Shown here: piece by piece, positions 516 through 16,029 of the stretch
How positions within the stretch are numbered: position 1 is the stretch's first letter
Layout: each line of letters opens with the position of its first letter
Origin: Candidatus Nitrosopumilus sp.
GTDB lineage: Archaea > Thermoproteota > Nitrososphaeria > Nitrososphaerales > Nitrosopumilaceae
Length of the DNA stretch: 63,461 nucleotides
NCBI GenBank assembly: GCA_003702495.1
Contig: REGH01000003.1
Location: forward strand, 1 to 63,461
Direction: 5' to 3'
The notes under the pieces: generated by a model
What the model was told of the DNA's origin: nothing
Seen by the model: the letters and a program-made list of their open reading frames with translations, nothing else
The model's database searches: none
Translations under genes and position numbers: made by a program

Positions 516-1361
516 TTATCCGTATGATTCGTATTTGACTTCAAAACTACCGTCTTCGCGCTTATCATGTTCTGTAACAAAGCCTTTTGGTTTTAGGAAA
601 TCCATTACACCATCTATTGTACCTTGCCAGCCACAAACATAGAAAATTGTGTTTTCTTTAGTAATTTTATCTCCAATTAATTCTTCTAATGGTGACATTC
701 CACTATCTCGTGGTCTTAGGAATGTTTCAACTCTACCTACTTGACCTGCCCATGATCTGTTAAACCACTCTTGAGGTCTACTAATTGCTGCTCTATATTT
801 GAAATTCCATTCATCTTTACCTCTACTGATACTTTCATTTTCTAATTCTGTTAGTAAATCCTTGTAACTTAATTCATCCACATAACTGGCGCCATGTAAT
901 ACAACAATCTCTCGTTTATCTCCTGAATCATGTAGATGTTGTGCAAAACTAACAAAAGGTGCAAGACCTGTTCCTCCTCCAATACAGATGATTCTTCTGT
1001 TGTCCTTTTCACCATTTGGTAACTCTTCATTGATTAACAATGCTCTACCTGTTGGTTTTAACCAGAGAATTTCATCTCCTTCTTTTGCATTGAATAACTG
1101 TGTAGTTAATCTTCCTGGAAGTGGTTTTCTAACCCATCTGATTACAAGCTCAATGTAATCTCTGTTTTCTGGATGTGATGCAATTGAATAGGCCCTTCTA
1201 ACAATTTTTCCACCTTCAACTGGATTAGGTAATCCAAGTGTGATAAATTGACCAGCTTTGTACTCTGGAACCGGACCTTCTTTTGGAACTAATCTAATAA
1301 TTACAAGATCTTCTTTTAATAACTGTACATATGTGACTGTAGCTTTGTTATCTACTACCAT
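516..1361 (-). CDS. Ferredoxin-NADP reductase-like flavoprotein, paralogue 1
   Basis: A 281-residue protein of the ferredoxin/flavodoxin-NADP+ reductase fold. An N-terminal FAD-binding barrel carries the RAYS motif at residues 56-59 (RxYS family signature). An NAD(P)-binding domain follows, with GGGTG at 128-132 and a late CGWQGT motif that normally orders the nicotinamide pocket. The length is close to bacterial Fpr (~250-260 residues). It would move electrons between NAD(P)H and a ferredoxin or other small carrier in the cytosol; the true partner is unknown. A close paralogue lies at 11623-12465. It has its own AT-rich promoter region upstream, shared with the intergenic space before tRNA-Ala. 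Confidence 0.85.
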   Translation of the reverse strand: MVVDNKATVTYVQLLKEDLVIIRLVPKEGPVPEYKAGQFITLGLPNPVEGGKIVRRAYSIASHPENRDYIELVIRWVRKPLPGRLTTQLFNAKEGDEILWLKPTGRALLINEELPNGEKDNRRIICIGGGTGLAPFVSFAQHLHDSGDKREIVVLHGASYVDELSYKDLLTELENESISRGKDEWNFKYRAAISRPQEWFNRSWAGQVGRVETFLRPRDSGMSPLEELIGDKITKENTIFYVCGWQGTIDGVMDFLKPKGFVTEHDKREDGSFEVKYESYG

Positions 1362-9422: not shown

Positions 9423-9548
9423 TCTTTTTCATTTAGTCATTATAGAACCGATCAAAATTGTTTTTTCATGATTATTCGTTCAAAAATTAATGATTTACAG
9501 TCTTTATCACAAGAATATTAAAATTCAGGCAAATTTTTGATTATTTTG

Positions 9549-10268
9549 TTGTCTGAAGAGAAAAAAGAATCTGAAGTAGAAGCAAAACCTACTGAAGATT
9601 CTACATCAGAGAAACCATCTGCTGAAGATACAGCAAAAGCAGAAGCTGCAAAAGCTGTTGAAGAGGCAAAACAAGCATCTGAAGCAACAGCAAAAGCAGA
9701 AGCTGCCGCAAAGGCCGCAGAAGAAGCTGAAAACGCTGTAAAAGAAGCTCTTGCAAAAGCACAAGCAGCAAAAGCAGAAGCTGAAGCTGCTGCTGAAGAG
9801 GAATACAAAGCAATTGCAGCTGAAGTAAAGGCAGATGCTGCAAAAGCTCCTGATTATAGCTTTAAACGACAAGGTGAGGAAATCTTTAGACGTGAAATGG
9901 GTGAACCTGAATTTTGGTTAGAAAAAGAAGATCGTTTCCCACGACCGATTCTTACTGCAGAACAACAAGAATCCCTTACATTAAAAGCAGAAACTCCTCA
10001 GGATCAAACTCCTGCATATGTTCCTGAACATGTACTTAGTCCCGAATTCGAAGGAAAATCAAATTATGAACGTGGTGTAGGGGAAATTCTAGAAGTTGCA
10101 AAATTAAAACTTGAAACATTAAAAAATTATCCTGATGCATCTGAAAAAGAAATTAAAGATTTAGAAGATGAAATTACTTATTTGGAATCATTGCATGAAA
10201 ATTACTTTATTGGCATGAATGTATTTAGAACAGCTCATGGTGGAAGAAGCAAAATAACAGCTAAATGA
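9549..10268 (+). CDS. Ala/Glu/Lys-rich coiled-coil protein of unknown function
   Basis: A ~239-residue protein. TTG at 9549 (MSEEKKE) is preferred to TTG at 9537 because a TATA-like stretch lies ~29 bp upstream of it. Residues ~15-100 are a low-complexity Ala/Glu/Lys run (KAEAAAKAAEEAE-like heptads) that should form a long charged helix or coiled coil. The C-terminal half is a different, ordered-looking domain with FRREMGEPEFWLEKEDRF and a terminal FIGMNVFRTAHGGRSK. No known family was recognised. It is followed after 12 bp by the HemA-like gene and is probably co-transcribed, so a link to tetrapyrrole metabolism is possible but unproven. Confidence 0.7.
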   Translation: MSEEKKESEVEAKPTEDSTSEKPSAEDTAKAEAAKAVEEAKQASEATAKAEAAAKAAEEAENAVKEALAKAQAAKAEAEAAAEEEYKAIAAEVKADAAKAPDYSFKRQGEEIFRREMGEPEFWLEKEDRFPRPILTAEQQESLTLKAETPQDQTPAYVPEHVLSPEFEGKSNYERGVGEILEVAKLKLETLKNYPDASEKEIKDLEDEITYLESLHENYFIGMNVFRTAHGGRSKITAK

Positions 10269-10280
10269 GGATGAGATGAT

Positions 10281-11357
10281 TTGGGTAACGTAAGTTTTGA
10301 TGTAATGAATGCACGTGTGACTTTTAAAAATGTGCCAATTCACTCTTTATCAAAATTTGAGTTTGAAGATGTTGGAGCAGCATGTGAAGAATTCAAAAAA
10401 ATTCCTGGTGTTGATGAATGTATAATTATTCAAACTGCAAGTAGAGTTGAAATATTTACAGTAAGTAATGTTGAAGATGAAGATTCTCCTGATGCAAGAA
10501 GAGATGAAGCAAAAGGTCTTATCTTAAATCAAGTCAAAGACACTTGGGTATCGTTATCTTCTTTAGAACAAATAGATATTGATCATTTTGATCAAACTAT
10601 CGAAGTCTACAAAGGCAATGATGTCTATTTGCATTTATTACGCTTAGCTGCAGGACTAGATTCTTTTGTTGTAGGTAAAAAAGAAGTTTATGATGAAATT
10701 GTTCAATCTCTTGAAAAAGCAAAACAAGCAGGAACTTCTGGCAAGATTTTGAATAAATTATTTGAAAGTGTTATTAGATTAGCCACAAAAATGAGAGATG
10801 CTACTGGAATAGAAAAAGATGTTATCTCTCTTGGTGATGTTGCAGTCAAATTAGTTGATGAAAAAGCAGGTTTGGATTCAAAAAAGAAGGTATTGTTAAT
10901 GGGAACTGGTGAATCTGCAGCACAAGTTGCAAAGACACTCAATAAGAAAGAAGTTCCTTATGATGTTGCCAGCAGAACCCTTGATAGGGCTACGGGCTTT
11001 TCAACAGTTGTCGGTGGAACTCCTGTTAATTTTGATGATGCGTTGGCAGGTTTAGACAAGTATGATATTGTCTTTGTTGCTACAACTGCAGACTATTTCA
11101 TAATCACTCATGAGAGAATACGATTGGTTATGGAGGAAAAGAAGAAAGGTACTCTTATCATGGATATTTCAGAACCAAGAGCTGTAAATGAGGACATCAC
11201 ATCCCTTCCGGGAATCAAATTGTTGTTTAGAGATCAAATTGCTGAACTCTATGAAGAAAGTGTTAAAGCTAGAAAAGGTATTGTTCCAGCAGTTGAAAAA
11301 ATTATAGATAAAGAACTACCTGTATTGTCAATTAGAATGCAAAAATTAGAAAATTAA
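10281..11357 (+). CDS. hemA: Glutamyl-tRNA reductase homologue lacking the catalytic cysteine
   Basis: A 358-residue protein colinear with glutamyl-tRNA reductase, the NADPH enzyme that makes glutamate-1-semialdehyde for haem, sirohaem and cobalamin. Recognisable parts are the N-terminal catalytic domain, HLLRLAAGLDSFVVG, the NAD-binding VLLMGTGESA (residues ~204-213) and the C-terminal dimerisation helix. However, the invariant TCNRxE active-site motif reads TASRVE (Ala53, Ser54), and the conserved GExQI reads GKKEV (132-136). Either the chemistry differs or this is a repurposed paralogue. It starts at a TTG preceded by GGATGAG, a possible ribosome-binding site. Confidence 0.85.
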   Translation: MGNVSFDVMNARVTFKNVPIHSLSKFEFEDVGAACEEFKKIPGVDECIIIQTASRVEIFTVSNVEDEDSPDARRDEAKGLILNQVKDTWVSLSSLEQIDIDHFDQTIEVYKGNDVYLHLLRLAAGLDSFVVGKKEVYDEIVQSLEKAKQAGTSGKILNKLFESVIRLATKMRDATGIEKDVISLGDVAVKLVDEKAGLDSKKKVLLMGTGESAAQVAKTLNKKEVPYDVASRTLDRATGFSTVVGGTPVNFDDALAGLDKYDIVFVATTADYFIITHERIRLVMEEKKKGTLIMDISEPRAVNEDITSLPGIKLLFRDQIAELYEESVKARKGIVPAVEKIIDKELPVLSIRMQKLEN

Positions 11358-11622: not shown

Positions 11623-12465
11623 CTATCCGTAGGATTCAAACTTGATTCCAAAACTTCCATCTGGTTTCTTTTCATGTTCTGTAACAAAACCCTGTGGTCC
11701 TAGAGAATCAATTACTCCATCAATAGTACCTTGATAACCACAAATGTAGATGATTGTATTTTCAGGAGTAATCTTTTCTCCTACCATCTCTTCTACAGGT
11801 GACATTCCCGTTTTTTTATCCGGTGCAAAGAATGATTCAACTCTGCCTACGTGACCATTCCATGATCTGTTGAAAAATTCTTTTGGTCTGCTAATGGCTG
11901 CTCTGTATCTAAAGTTCCATTGATCCCTTCCTCGTTTTTCACTTTCATTCTCCAAATCAGTAAACAGACGTTTGTAACTTAATTCATCGACATAACTTGC
12001 ACCATGTAAAACAACAACTTCTCTTTTGTCATTTGTATCATGGAAATGTTTTGCAAAAGCAACAAATGGTGCAATTCCTGTACCTCCACCAACACAGATT
12101 ACTCTTCTTTTATCTTCTTGTCCGTTTGGCAATACATCACTAATTTGTAATGCAGTTCCACTAGGATCTCCTAACCAAACTTCATCACCTACACTTGAAT
12201 AGAATAATTCTGTAGTAACTCTACCTGGTAGTGGTTTTCTTACCCATCTAATTACAAATTCAAAATAATCTCTATTTTCAGCATGTGATGCAATTGAATA
12301 TGCTCTTCTTACAATTTTTTTTTCTGCTGGTATTGGAACGCCTATTGTTAAAAATTGACCAGTCTTGTATTCTGGCATTCCTCCTTCTGGTAGTAATCTA
12401 ATGATCACAAGGTCTTCTTTTAATAATTCTCTGTAAATGACCTTGGCCTTAGTCTCACTAACCAT
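11623..12465 (-). CDS. Ferredoxin-NADP reductase-like flavoprotein, paralogue 2
   Basis: A 280-residue protein that aligns end to end with the product of 516-1361. It shares the RRAYSIASH FAD motif, WVRKPLPGR, GGGTGIAPF, the ASYVDELSYK segment, SRP-FFNRSW and the late CGYQGT motif. Differences cluster around the FAD adenosine side (LGDPSGTALQ here, LKPTGRALL there), so partner or cofactor preference may differ. Both should be cytosolic NAD(P)H-dependent flavoproteins acting on ferredoxin-like carriers. The spread of two copies ~10 kb apart, each alone, points to an old duplication rather than a tandem one. Confidence 0.85.
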   Translation of the reverse strand: MVSETKAKVIYRELLKEDLVIIRLLPEGGMPEYKTGQFLTIGVPIPAEKKIVRRAYSIASHAENRDYFEFVIRWVRKPLPGRVTTELFYSSVGDEVWLGDPSGTALQISDVLPNGQEDKRRVICVGGGTGIAPFVAFAKHFHDTNDKREVVVLHGASYVDELSYKRLFTDLENESEKRGRDQWNFRYRAAISRPKEFFNRSWNGHVGRVESFFAPDKKTGMSPVEEMVGEKITPENTIIYICGYQGTIDGVIDSLGPQGFVTEHEKKPDGSFGIKFESYG

Positions 12466-13351: not shown

Positions 13352-13433
13352 GAGAAAATATACTTGATTCGTAATTTAAGTGAAGAAAATTTTTGTTTTG
13401 AAAGCATAAATAACAACACATTGAATTTTGATT

Positions 13434-14555
13434 GTGAGTGGAAAAGACGAATCAATTTTTAGTAAAAGTGCTTTAATGGGAACAAAACCTGGAAAACAAA
13501 TCATCAAACAGGGTTTATTCAAATCAAAGGGATTCAAATTATTTAATCAATACAAGCAAGAGGCTGAAGATGCATTTCCTACATTTGCAGAAAGATTTGC
13601 AAAAAATCTATTTGAACAAATTAAGACTGATCAATCTCCAAATACAACTCAACAACAATTTGCTGAAGAAGTAGGTTCTACTGAAATTATTTTGAATGCA
13701 TCTGAAATTGAGCCTATAAAATCAAAACTACAAGATTTTGACACCTTACACGATAGAGTACTTAGAATTTTAAATTCTAATTTTGTTAAAATGACATTTC
13801 CTGTTTTTAATGGTCTTTTTGATGCATCTACAGATTATTTCAAAGACGACCCAAACACCACAATGAGAGAAGATATTGTTGATGGTCACATTATTGCAAT
13901 TGATCTTAGTGAACCAATGGATAGAATTGTGGATAAAGATGAAGATTTGGAATACTTGGACGATTACAAATTGATGAATCCGTATATTTTGAAACTTGCA
14001 AGAGAAAAAATTTCAAAGGGTGGGGAAGATGTACTAAAAGAATTTGAAGAAGGTTTCAAACAAGCAAGAATTGGACAATATCTTGATACAAAATTAAAAG
14101 ATAAGCCTACTGAAATTACTGAAGAAGAATTAATTGAAAGTTACAAAAAATATCGTTCTGTTATGGGAACTGCCGGTAGAAACATGGCTCTAAATCGTGC
14201 ACCTTTAGCTGACATTTTTTACACTGGAATGGCAAAAGCTGCAGAATCTGTAGGATGTGGAAATGAAATTGAAGATAGCATTAGGGATAGAGCTGCAAAA
14301 ATTCCTTCTTGGCCATTATTTTATTCATTAAAAATGAATGATGCAAAACGTGGATTTGAAGAAACAATGAAACATAGCGAATCCTATTTGAAAGAAGCAA
14401 GAGATGCACTAGAAAAATTACCCGATAATTTCTCACATACCAAATTTTTAGAATTCCTATTTCTTACTGTAGAACATTATAATCAATTCTGGTATAAGAA
14501 ATTGCAAGAAGAAAACATCTGGTCAGATTTGAACAAAAATCTTCCAAGAAAGTGA
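13434..14555 (+). CDS. Conserved protein of unknown function coupled to rfcL
   Basis: A ~373-residue soluble protein, mostly charged helices, not recognised as any known family. GTG at 13434 (MSGKDESIFSK) is preferred over TTG at 13428 because a TATA element CATAAATAAC (centre ~13409) lies 25 bp upstream. No membrane span or Cys cluster is seen. Residues near the C-terminus, such as HSESYLKEARDALEKLP and FLTVEHYNQFWY, look like a helical bundle. Its stop overlaps the GTG of rfcL as GTGA, so the two are translationally coupled and may act in the same replication process. Confidence 0.7.
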   Translation: MSGKDESIFSKSALMGTKPGKQIIKQGLFKSKGFKLFNQYKQEAEDAFPTFAERFAKNLFEQIKTDQSPNTTQQQFAEEVGSTEIILNASEIEPIKSKLQDFDTLHDRVLRILNSNFVKMTFPVFNGLFDASTDYFKDDPNTTMREDIVDGHIIAIDLSEPMDRIVDKDEDLEYLDDYKLMNPYILKLAREKISKGGEDVLKEFEEGFKQARIGQYLDTKLKDKPTEITEEELIESYKKYRSVMGTAGRNMALNRAPLADIFYTGMAKAAESVGCGNEIEDSIRDRAAKIPSWPLFYSLKMNDAKRGFEETMKHSESYLKEARDALEKLPDNFSHTKFLEFLFLTVEHYNQFWYKKLQEENIWSDLNKNLPRK

Positions 14556-15721
14556 TAAAATTGATGTGGTCTGAAAAATACCGACCTCAGAATATTTCTG
14601 ACATGGTTGGAAATGAAGAATCTCGCGCTGCAATCATGGAATGGTTTGTTAAATGGAAAAAAGGTACAAAACCTCTCCTTTTAGTTGGCCCTCCTGGAAT
14701 AGGGAAAACTACAATGGCCTTTCTTGTAGCCAAAAAATTTGGCTATGATATGATTGGGCTTAATGCAAGTGATGTTAGAAGTAAATCCAGAATTAATGAG
14801 ATTCTTACTCCTGTATTGGGAAACGTAAGCGTTCTTGGAACTCCAATGATATTTGTTGATGAGGTAGATGGAATTCATGGTCGTGGAGATTATGGTGGTG
14901 TGGCGGCACTAGTTGATATTCTAAAAGAACCAACTGTTCCAATCATCCTTGCTGCAAACGATGACACATCTGATAAAATGAAAAATATCAAAAAAGCTGT
15001 CAAAACAATTTCTTTCAAAAAAATTCCACCACGTCTACTTCGAGTTTATCTGGAAAATGTTTTGAAAAAAGAAAATGCAAAACTTAGTCCTGGTTCTTTA
15101 ATCAAAGTAATTGACAAGTCTAGAGGTGACATACGTTCGATGATTAATTTGACACAATCAATGGTTACAGGATTTAATCCACAAACAGAAACAACATTTG
15201 AAAATATTCATGTTGAAGATGGTGTTAATGCATTTTTCAAATCAAAATCTGTTGAGGAAGCTAGAGGTGTTTTGTATTCAATGCAAATTGATCCTAGAGA
15301 AAAAATTAATGCATTTTACTCTAGCATTGTTACGAGTAATTTGGATACTGAAACACTTGCAAAATATTTGGAAATAATTTCTGAAGCTGACATGCTATAT
15401 GGAAAAATTGTTAGAACACAAAATTGGAGATTACTAAGATATCTTAATGATATTTTGATTAAACTTTATCAAAATGATGATAGAGTTAGATATGCACAAT
15501 ACAATCTTTCGTGGCCTTTACTCAATAGAATTCGTTGGGATGGAGCAAAAATAAAATCGCTTTCTTCTATTATGGCAAAAAAATTACATTTGTCATCTAG
15601 TGCATTTGTTACCTTTGGATTACCTTTTGTTTTATTTTGTATAAAAAATAATTCATTAGAGTTGGAACTAGAAGAAACGTTTAGTGATATTATTGAAAAG
15701 GAGATTGAACTGATACAATGA
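14552..15721 (+). CDS. rfcL: Replication factor C large subunit
   Basis: A 385-389-residue AAA+ clamp-loader subunit that, with RFC small, opens PCNA at primer-template junctions. It begins WSEKYRPQ (RFC box), with Walker A GPPGIGKTT, Walker B FVDEVDG and the arginine-rich sensor region DIRSMIN. Translation may start at GTG 14552 (overlapping the upstream stop) or ATG 14564 (MWSEKYRP); the latter better matches the family. It is shorter than many archaeal RfcL proteins (~450-500) and ends without an obvious PCNA-interacting QxxLxxFF peptide. The next gene overlaps its stop by four bases. Confidence 0.92.
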   Translation: MIKLMWSEKYRPQNISDMVGNEESRAAIMEWFVKWKKGTKPLLLVGPPGIGKTTMAFLVAKKFGYDMIGLNASDVRSKSRINEILTPVLGNVSVLGTPMIFVDEVDGIHGRGDYGGVAALVDILKEPTVPIILAANDDTSDKMKNIKKAVKTISFKKIPPRLLRVYLENVLKKENAKLSPGSLIKVIDKSRGDIRSMINLTQSMVTGFNPQTETTFENIHVEDGVNAFFKSKSVEEARGVLYSMQIDPREKINAFYSSIVTSNLDTETLAKYLEIISEADMLYGKIVRTQNWRLLRYLNDILIKLYQNDDRVRYAQYNLSWPLLNRIRWDGAKIKSLSSIMAKKLHLSSSAFVTFGLPFVLFCIKNNSLELELEETFSDIIEKEIELIQ

Positions 15722-16029
15722 GTTGGAGAAAAATACCTATGAAGTTCCCTGGAACTTGTATTGTATGCAATGAAAAAATTGAAATTAATGAAATTGGTCT
15801 GTGGGCAAAAGGACTTGGGGTAAAGCATGAAAAATGTGCTGAAGTTCATGAACTACAGTGTATAGTTTGTGGTGGTTCAGCTGGATGCGAACAATGTGAA
15901 TTTCAGGAAAGCTGTGATATTCCAAACGTCTCTCAATTCTGTATATGTAAAAAATGTAGTGAAAAAACCCACACCTTTGCCTCCTACCAAAAAGCTACTA
16001 ACAAAAAATTTCCAATTATTAACTCATAA
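15718..16029 (+). CDS. Cys-rich zinc-binding protein of unknown function
   Basis: A 103-residue protein with CIVC-x22-C, CIVCGG, CEQC, and CIC-x2-C clusters, altogether enough cysteines and histidines for two or three zinc or Fe-S sites. The first part (KFPGTCIVCNEKIEINEIGLW) resembles zinc fingers that read nucleic acid. Its ATG overlaps the rfcL stop (ATGA), so it belongs to the same operon as the unknown 373-residue protein and RfcL. No name is warranted. A replication or repair accessory role is an inference from coupling only. Confidence 0.7.
   Translation: MSWRKIPMKFPGTCIVCNEKIEINEIGLWAKGLGVKHEKCAEVHELQCIVCGGSAGCEQCEFQESCDIPNVSQFCICKKCSEKTHTFASYQKATNKKFPIINS

Follow-up and report, generated by a model that had tools for sequence, protein, structure and literature searches.

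A paralogue of glutamyl-tRNA reductase without the catalytic cysteine, and its conserved gene neighbours, in Nitrosopumilaceae

The stretch of DNA analysed here (the window, 63,461 nt, from Candidatus Nitrosopumilus sp.) carries an ORF, called GTRp below, whose product resembles glutamyl-tRNA reductase (GluTR, the hemA product). Just upstream of it on the same strand is an ORF for an Ala-rich protein (AlaCC), and downstream, on the opposite strand, is one for a reductase of the ferredoxin-NADP-reductase superfamily (FNR2). Coordinates of the three genes and of the GTRp and AlaCC features discussed are collected in Table 1. GTRp has Pfam matches above their cut-offs to GlutR_N (residues 13–175) followed by Shikimate_DH (PF01488, residues 194–318). 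Residues 11–357 also match the NCBIfam hemA equivalog TIGR01035, but the score of 195 bits is below the model's curated cut-off of 209.55; the window protein alone was scored. The initial annotation had drawn attention to an Ala at the nucleophile position and to GKKEV in place of the GExQI motif, and both are there: Ala53, encoded by GCA, lies in QTASRVE, and GKKEV occupies residues 132–136. The accompanying statement that everything else aligns in order with GluTR holds for the two domain matches, but not for an insertion at about residues 65–78, nor for the C-terminal domain, which is missing.

Table 1. Positions in the window of the three genes and of the features discussed in the text
Feature	Position	Strand	Description
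AlaCC, long form	9537–10268	+	Ala-rich, with conserved helical C-terminal half; stop codon 12 bases before the GTRp ORF
Conserved C-terminal part of AlaCC	9840–10265	+	Its residues 15–25, IFRREMGEPEF, belong to an extension that the short forms read do not have
GTRp	10281–11357	+	Cys-less GluTR-fold paralogue; TTG start, 358 aa; Pfam GlutR_N and Shikimate_DH
Codon GCA, Ala53	10437–10439	+	Position of the GluTR catalytic Cys, in QTASRVE; Cys in 0/36 paralogues and 39/39 canonical proteins
Paralogue-specific insertion, about residues 65–78	10473–10514	+	About 14 residues, gap in 37/37 canonical rows; D71 and R73 in 36/36 paralogues
HFDQ, residues 102–105	10584–10595	+	New invariants H102, D104 and Q105, 36/36 paralogues; variable in 39 canonical proteins
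GKKEV, residues 132–136	10674–10688	+	Position of GluTR GExQI (canonical E 39/39, Q 38/39); variable in paralogues
GTGESA, residues 208–213	10902–10919	+	Rossmann nucleotide-binding loop; G208, T209, G210 and A213 in 36/36 paralogues
Asp271	11091–11093	+	New invariant, 36/36 paralogues; Pro in 37/39 canonical proteins
FNR2	11623–12465	-	FAD/NAD(P)-binding reductase, ferredoxin-NADP-reductase superfamily; Pfam FAD_binding_6 and NAD_binding_1 above cut-off

Two GlutR_N genes are present in the genome to which the window belongs (93 contigs, 92.84% complete). The other one is a canonical hemA (G000:C77), encoding 423 aa with QTCNRIE and GEEQI and adjoining hemB and a Met8-like ORF (locus L002), so that a search for a second hemA with TCNR, which the initial annotation had proposed, does find one in the same genome. 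The two proteins are 45% identical over GTRp residues 5–357. For Nitrosopumilus maritimus, PMC3004389 gives a single hemA, NMAR_0510, although where a gene cluster holds a copy, that copy alone is listed there. No earlier paper on the paralogue was found among the matches listed for the open-access part of PMC.

Residues were counted, and a maximum-likelihood tree built, for 75 of the 134 hit ORFs, namely 36 paralogues and 39 canonical proteins. The 36 paralogues form a single clade (support 100/100) nested among the canonical HemA proteins of Nitrosopumilaceae. On this sequence evidence the GTRp clade is a branch of the family's own HemA, and acquisition from outside the family was rejected because of the nesting. 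At the nucleophile position the paralogues have Ala (21), Ser (7), Gln (3), Thr (2) or Asn, Pro or Gly (one each). Since Cys is found there in none of them but in all 39 canonical proteins, the simplest reading is that it was lost on the stem of the clade. Relatives thus do not keep TCNR at this site, as they might if the window contained a local error. Estimates of dN/dS between GTRp and six relatives are 0.044, 0.050, 0.059, 0.052, 0.080 and 0.115, with dS above 1 for the last two; the values for the four close relatives (0.044–0.059) point to strong purifying selection. Taken alone, the missing residues would speak for a sequencing error, a pseudogene or a decaying copy, but the absence of Cys from all 36 paralogues of different genomes, the dN/dS of about 0.04–0.12 and the well-supported clade make that reading negligible, and a local error or pseudogene was rejected on the evidence of the relatives and of dN/dS.

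The changes extend well beyond the Cys. The Glu and Gln of GExQI (E133 and Q135 in P0001 numbering) occur in none of the 36 paralogues, the window protein having K133 and E135. The conserved His of the helix before GLDS, present in 39/39 canonical proteins, is kept in 22/36 paralogues and in the window protein (H118). What remains of QTCNRxE is invariant (Q51, R55 and E57, 36/36), as are D295, S297, P299 and R300 of the Rossmann DxSxPR motif. R232 of the SRT motif varies (Met in 14 paralogues, Arg in 10, Lys in seven, Gln in four, Leu in one), and this variation probably reflects an altered cofactor specificity. Six polar residues are newly invariant in the paralogues (D71, R73, H102, D104, Q105 and D271, each 36/36), and a 75-row alignment agrees. 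With its insertion, these six new invariants and a retained Rossmann signature, the GTRp clade is, as far as its alignments can tell, not simply decaying.

The suggestion that Ser54 or Cys47 might substitute for the missing nucleophile finds little favour. Cys47 is present in 73/75 paralogue rows but also in 29/37 canonical rows that have the true Cys, while residue 54 is Phe in 6/36 paralogues and residue 53 varies; both were rejected as replacement nucleophiles for the clade. Cys35, present in the window protein, is found in 53/75 paralogue rows and 1/37 canonical ones, and a Cys at position 124 in 23/75 and 0/37. Among the Cys columns of these 75 paralogue and 37 canonical rows, none is both new and invariant in the paralogue clade; Cys35, though not invariant, may still serve as a lineage-specific thiol.

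The C-terminal dimerisation domain is missing from the window protein (358 aa, compared with 423 aa for the canonical enzyme) and from 16/35 scored paralogues, a distribution requiring at least four changes. These figures were obtained with a lowered threshold and with one contig-cut row left out; a stricter first threshold gave 22/36 short proteins and seven changes, but also called proteins of 409–416 residues short. For normal GluTR, PMC6399207 describes what the Cys, hydride transfer and the dimerisation domain do.

An AF2 model of GTRp, built with 43 sequences from the window and the named loci, has a mean pLDDT of 78.6 and a pTM of 0.66. Its top four structural matches are all GluTR (4n7r, 5che, 1gpj and 5yjl), with Z of 23.2–24.4 over 314–324 residues and rmsd of 7.7–8.1 Å; Foldseek gives 8.2–8.7 Å for its GluTR matches. 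The high Foldseek values may reflect hinge movement between the domains. Structures of the shikimate/quinate dehydrogenase superfamily match the Rossmann half. Residues 65–73 of the insertion have pLDDT below 50 and no usable geometry.

GTRp is present in 78 and absent from 39 of 117 scorable Nitrosopumilaceae genomes (121 were drawn; the other four were unscorable because a second match was not listed). In a sample of the class searched at E 1e-10, all 45 genomes of the window's genus have two or three matches, and genomes outside Nitrosopumilaceae have at most one each. At E 1e-150, an alignment search across the order matched 24 of its 151 genomes, all 24 of them in Nitrosopumilaceae. The named loci, the best 80 of 148, are mainly from Nitrosopumilus, Nitrosarchaeum and Nitrosopelagicus, with some titled only thaumarchaeote or archaeon. 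One record titled Nitrososphaeraceae (L212) has a GTRp 71% identical to that of the window, at odds with a distribution restricted to one family; it is possibly a mislabelled MAG. Two close relatives in genus g17 form a natural pair for gene content: G094 (L099) carries GTRp together with long AlaCC and two copies of FNR, while G034 (L106) lacks both GTRp and long AlaCC and has a single FNR. In G027 (genus g6, 95% complete) a hemA of either kind was not found in the genome search.

Of the neighbours, AlaCC is the more constant. It abuts or overlaps GTRp in all 80 named loci (the best 80 of 148), in 76 by a strict distance rule and in four by a larger overlap. Of the options raised in the initial annotation, that of a neofunctionalised paralogue, putatively co-transcribed with an Ala-rich coiled-coil protein, is the one supported. 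Alignments show the C-terminal 140 residues of AlaCC to be conserved. The long form is found in 77/78 genomes with GTRp, the sole miss being G065 (60% complete), and in 0/39 without. When relatedness is taken into account on the canonical-HemA tree (30 family rows, 34 with outgroups), GTRp presence gives five supported independent contrasts (INDEPENDENCE); long AlaCC follows GTRp in 5/5 of them and multiple FNR copies in 4.8 of five on average. This is a gene tree and not a species tree, and five pairs give a p of 0.0625 at best, so that 0.05 is out of reach.

A short AlaCC, without the IFRREMGEPEF segment, is found in genomes lacking GTRp and lies directly upstream of pccB in 9/9 loci where the contig continues. 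These nine come from seven family genomes without GTRp, from G017, which has both forms, and from G158, of another family; a further contig (L146) ends before pccB. The short proteins at these loci (L138, L139, L141–L145, L147 and L148) are unnamed and probably helical, with an ending like NVFRTAKGGR, the G158 match being weak. They may represent an unrecognised carboxylase-associated protein, encoded next to the beta-subunit gene of acetyl/propionyl-CoA carboxylase. In eight loci (L052, L053, L055, L056, L060, L068, L069 and L070) the whole triad of AlaCC, GTRp and FNR lies between the zn gene and pccB/accC. From the short form beside pccB and the triad at pccB, AlaCC appears to derive from a carboxylase-neighbour gene, its extension having been gained with GTRp. 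A 103-aa Cys-rich, zinc-ribbon-like ORF often found upstream of pccB occurs in the window at 15718–16029 (+), with no Pfam match at E 1.

Modelled alone, AlaCC is helical, with a mean pLDDT of 65.7 and a pTM of 0.38, and much of the IFRREMGEPEF segment is below 50, as would fit a segment that becomes ordered when bound to a partner. AlaCC has no Pfam or NCBIfam match at 0.001. The whole protein has no match to PDB sequences at E 1, and a profile search against them gives 17 weak rows, the best at E 0.04.

An FNR gene lies within 3.5 kb of GTRp in 71/80 named loci (again the best 80 of 148); in the other nine, fewer than 700 bases of contig remain downstream. Among 31 loci, the most recurrent families are AlaCC (30), GTRp (30) and FNR (27), followed by one labelled RfcL here (13); the L053 GTRp was dropped by the ORF filter yet is present at the locus. 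A fourth recurring gene of the module was rejected, as the next best candidate, RfcL, is in only 13/31 loci, and no hem gene recurs beside GTRp in the loci examined. A 375-aa ORF conserved beside the cluster (13428–14555, +) has no NCBIfam match at 0.001. For FNR2, all 25 NCBIfam rows listed stay below their cut-offs. The genome's second FNR-like gene, also in the window (519–1361, -), is 70% identical to FNR2 and groups with copies from genomes without GTRp.

At least two FNR copies are found in 66/78 genomes with GTRp and in 0/39 without. In the remaining 12/78, including G036, G052, G096, G107 and G112 (genus g19), there is one, and duplication of the neighbour was not seen there. In a tree of 56 FNR rows, 26 of the 31 triad-locus rows and two non-adjacent g17 copies fall on one side of a branch with support 98/86, while five of the 31 belong to the ordinary FNR lineage (G007, G036, G052, G096 and a second FNR near the G031 locus). 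L064 (G076) and L065 (G082) have no FNR next to GTRp; the G076 FNR, at L248, falls in the FNR2 clade, and the G082 copy is not among the tree rows. Because of the non-adjacent cases, the five ordinary-lineage rows and the 12 single-copy genomes, the link of FNR2 to GTRp is weaker than that of AlaCC.

Compared with GluTR (HemA/GtrR, TIGR01035; 1gpj from M. kandleri, 4n7r, 5che and 5yjl from Arabidopsis), GTRp has the same overall fold, with the GlutR_N and Rossmann domains and Q51, R55 and E57. It differs in lacking the catalytic Cys and, in the window's lineage, the C-terminal domain, in having GKKEV for GExQI, and in its insertion, its six new invariants and the lack of a recurring hem neighbour. 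The canonical HemA of the same genome, to which it is paralogous, keeps TCNRIE, GEEQI, its full length and hemB as a neighbour. With the shikimate/quinate dehydrogenase superfamily (PF01488) it shares the Rossmann domain, but its N-terminal half is GlutR_N instead. What seems to be new is the combination of a GluTR fold carrying a rebuilt site with a conserved gene module.

We are highly confident that GTRp is not a functional GluTR. That it might still reduce glutamyl-tRNA, through another nucleophile or by direct hydride attack on the tRNA ester, and so provide a second ALA supply, is suggested by the retention of Q51, R55 and E57 in 36/36 paralogues and of H118 in the window protein. It is very improbable, however, in a genome that also has a canonical hemA: the clade has no common substitute nucleophile and lacks the Glu and Gln of GExQI, the window protein is without the C-terminal domain, the neighbourhood has no recurring hem gene and the score is below the TIGR01035 cut-off. 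The other route considered in the initial annotation is disfavoured on these grounds. A different possibility is a Cys-free acyl-CoA reductase acting on malonyl-CoA or another carboxylase product. Because a CoA substrate comes as a thioester, such an enzyme could dispense with all but the second, hydride-transfer half of the GluTR reaction, which would explain why the acylation machinery alone (Cys, Glu and Gln) is lost and the Rossmann half kept, and the eight loci with the triad between the zn gene and pccB/accC would fit. This too is unlikely, since GTRp is absent from 39/117 scorable family genomes and the triad lies away from pccB in several lineages. One genome without GTRp is presumably a Nitrosotalea; if it is an autotroph, GTRp is not needed for the carbon cycle.

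The main alternative is a pseudoenzyme that binds NAD(P)H, a tetrapyrrole or an acyl-CoA signal and regulates, for instance, HemA or acetyl-CoA/propionyl-CoA carboxylase through AlaCC. It is a serious possibility, somewhat short of even probability. Cys, Glu and Gln of the old active site have disappeared and the His is no longer constant; the C-terminal domain of the GluTR dimer has been lost repeatedly; the short AlaCC upstream of pccB in 9/9 loci hints at a carboxylase-linked role; and the IFRREMGEPEF segment, though strongly conserved, is for the most part modelled with low confidence, as expected of a partner-binding stretch. Against it, a new invariant set of Asp, Arg and His would, in our judgement, not be expected in a pure scaffold, and an FNR-like redox enzyme encoded nearby hints at redox turnover. 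Having lost the old Cys and glutamate-site residues and fixed new Asp, Arg, His and Gln, with its nucleotide-binding domain intact, GTRp most likely has a new NAD(P)-linked role, in catalysis or in binding. The explanation preferred here, to which we give an even chance, is that GTRp arose by duplication of the family's HemA and now serves as another kind of NAD(P)-binding protein, in all likelihood an oxidoreductase, having ceased to be a GluTR. The invariant polar residues can, however, also mark a binding or sensing site.

GTRp, AlaCC and FNR2 are best read, from their gene order and co-occurrence, as a three-protein module. If GTRp is an oxidoreductase, it would bind a nicotinamide cofactor, probably of altered specificity, and the insertion together with H102, D104, Q105 and D271 would form a new substrate site. 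A small carbonyl-type substrate would receive or give up hydride directly, with no covalent thioester. AlaCC, as a dedicated partner, would hold the complex through its IFRREMGEPEF segment, and FNR2 would connect the module's nicotinamide pool to ferredoxin. A more speculative reading, at long odds, is that GTRp, long AlaCC and FNR2 make up an oxidoreductase complex not described before. In it, a GluTR without the covalent half-reaction would pass hydride directly to a ready-made acyl thioester, such as a carboxylase product, and the redox supply would thereby be coupled to the acetyl-CoA/propionyl-CoA carboxylase of the archaeal 3-hydroxypropionate/4-hydroxybutyrate cycle.

Archaea of the Nitrosopumilus type rank among the ocean's most abundant microbes and are important nitrifiers. 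In most of the scored genomes of the family, a gene easily annotated as hemA appears to encode something else, a protein whose active site is rebuilt and whose partner genes are conserved. If this is true, it would correct reconstructions of the tetrapyrrole pathway, offer a natural example of an enzyme that has given up its nucleophile, and point to an unassigned redox module of three proteins in marine ammonia-oxidising archaea.
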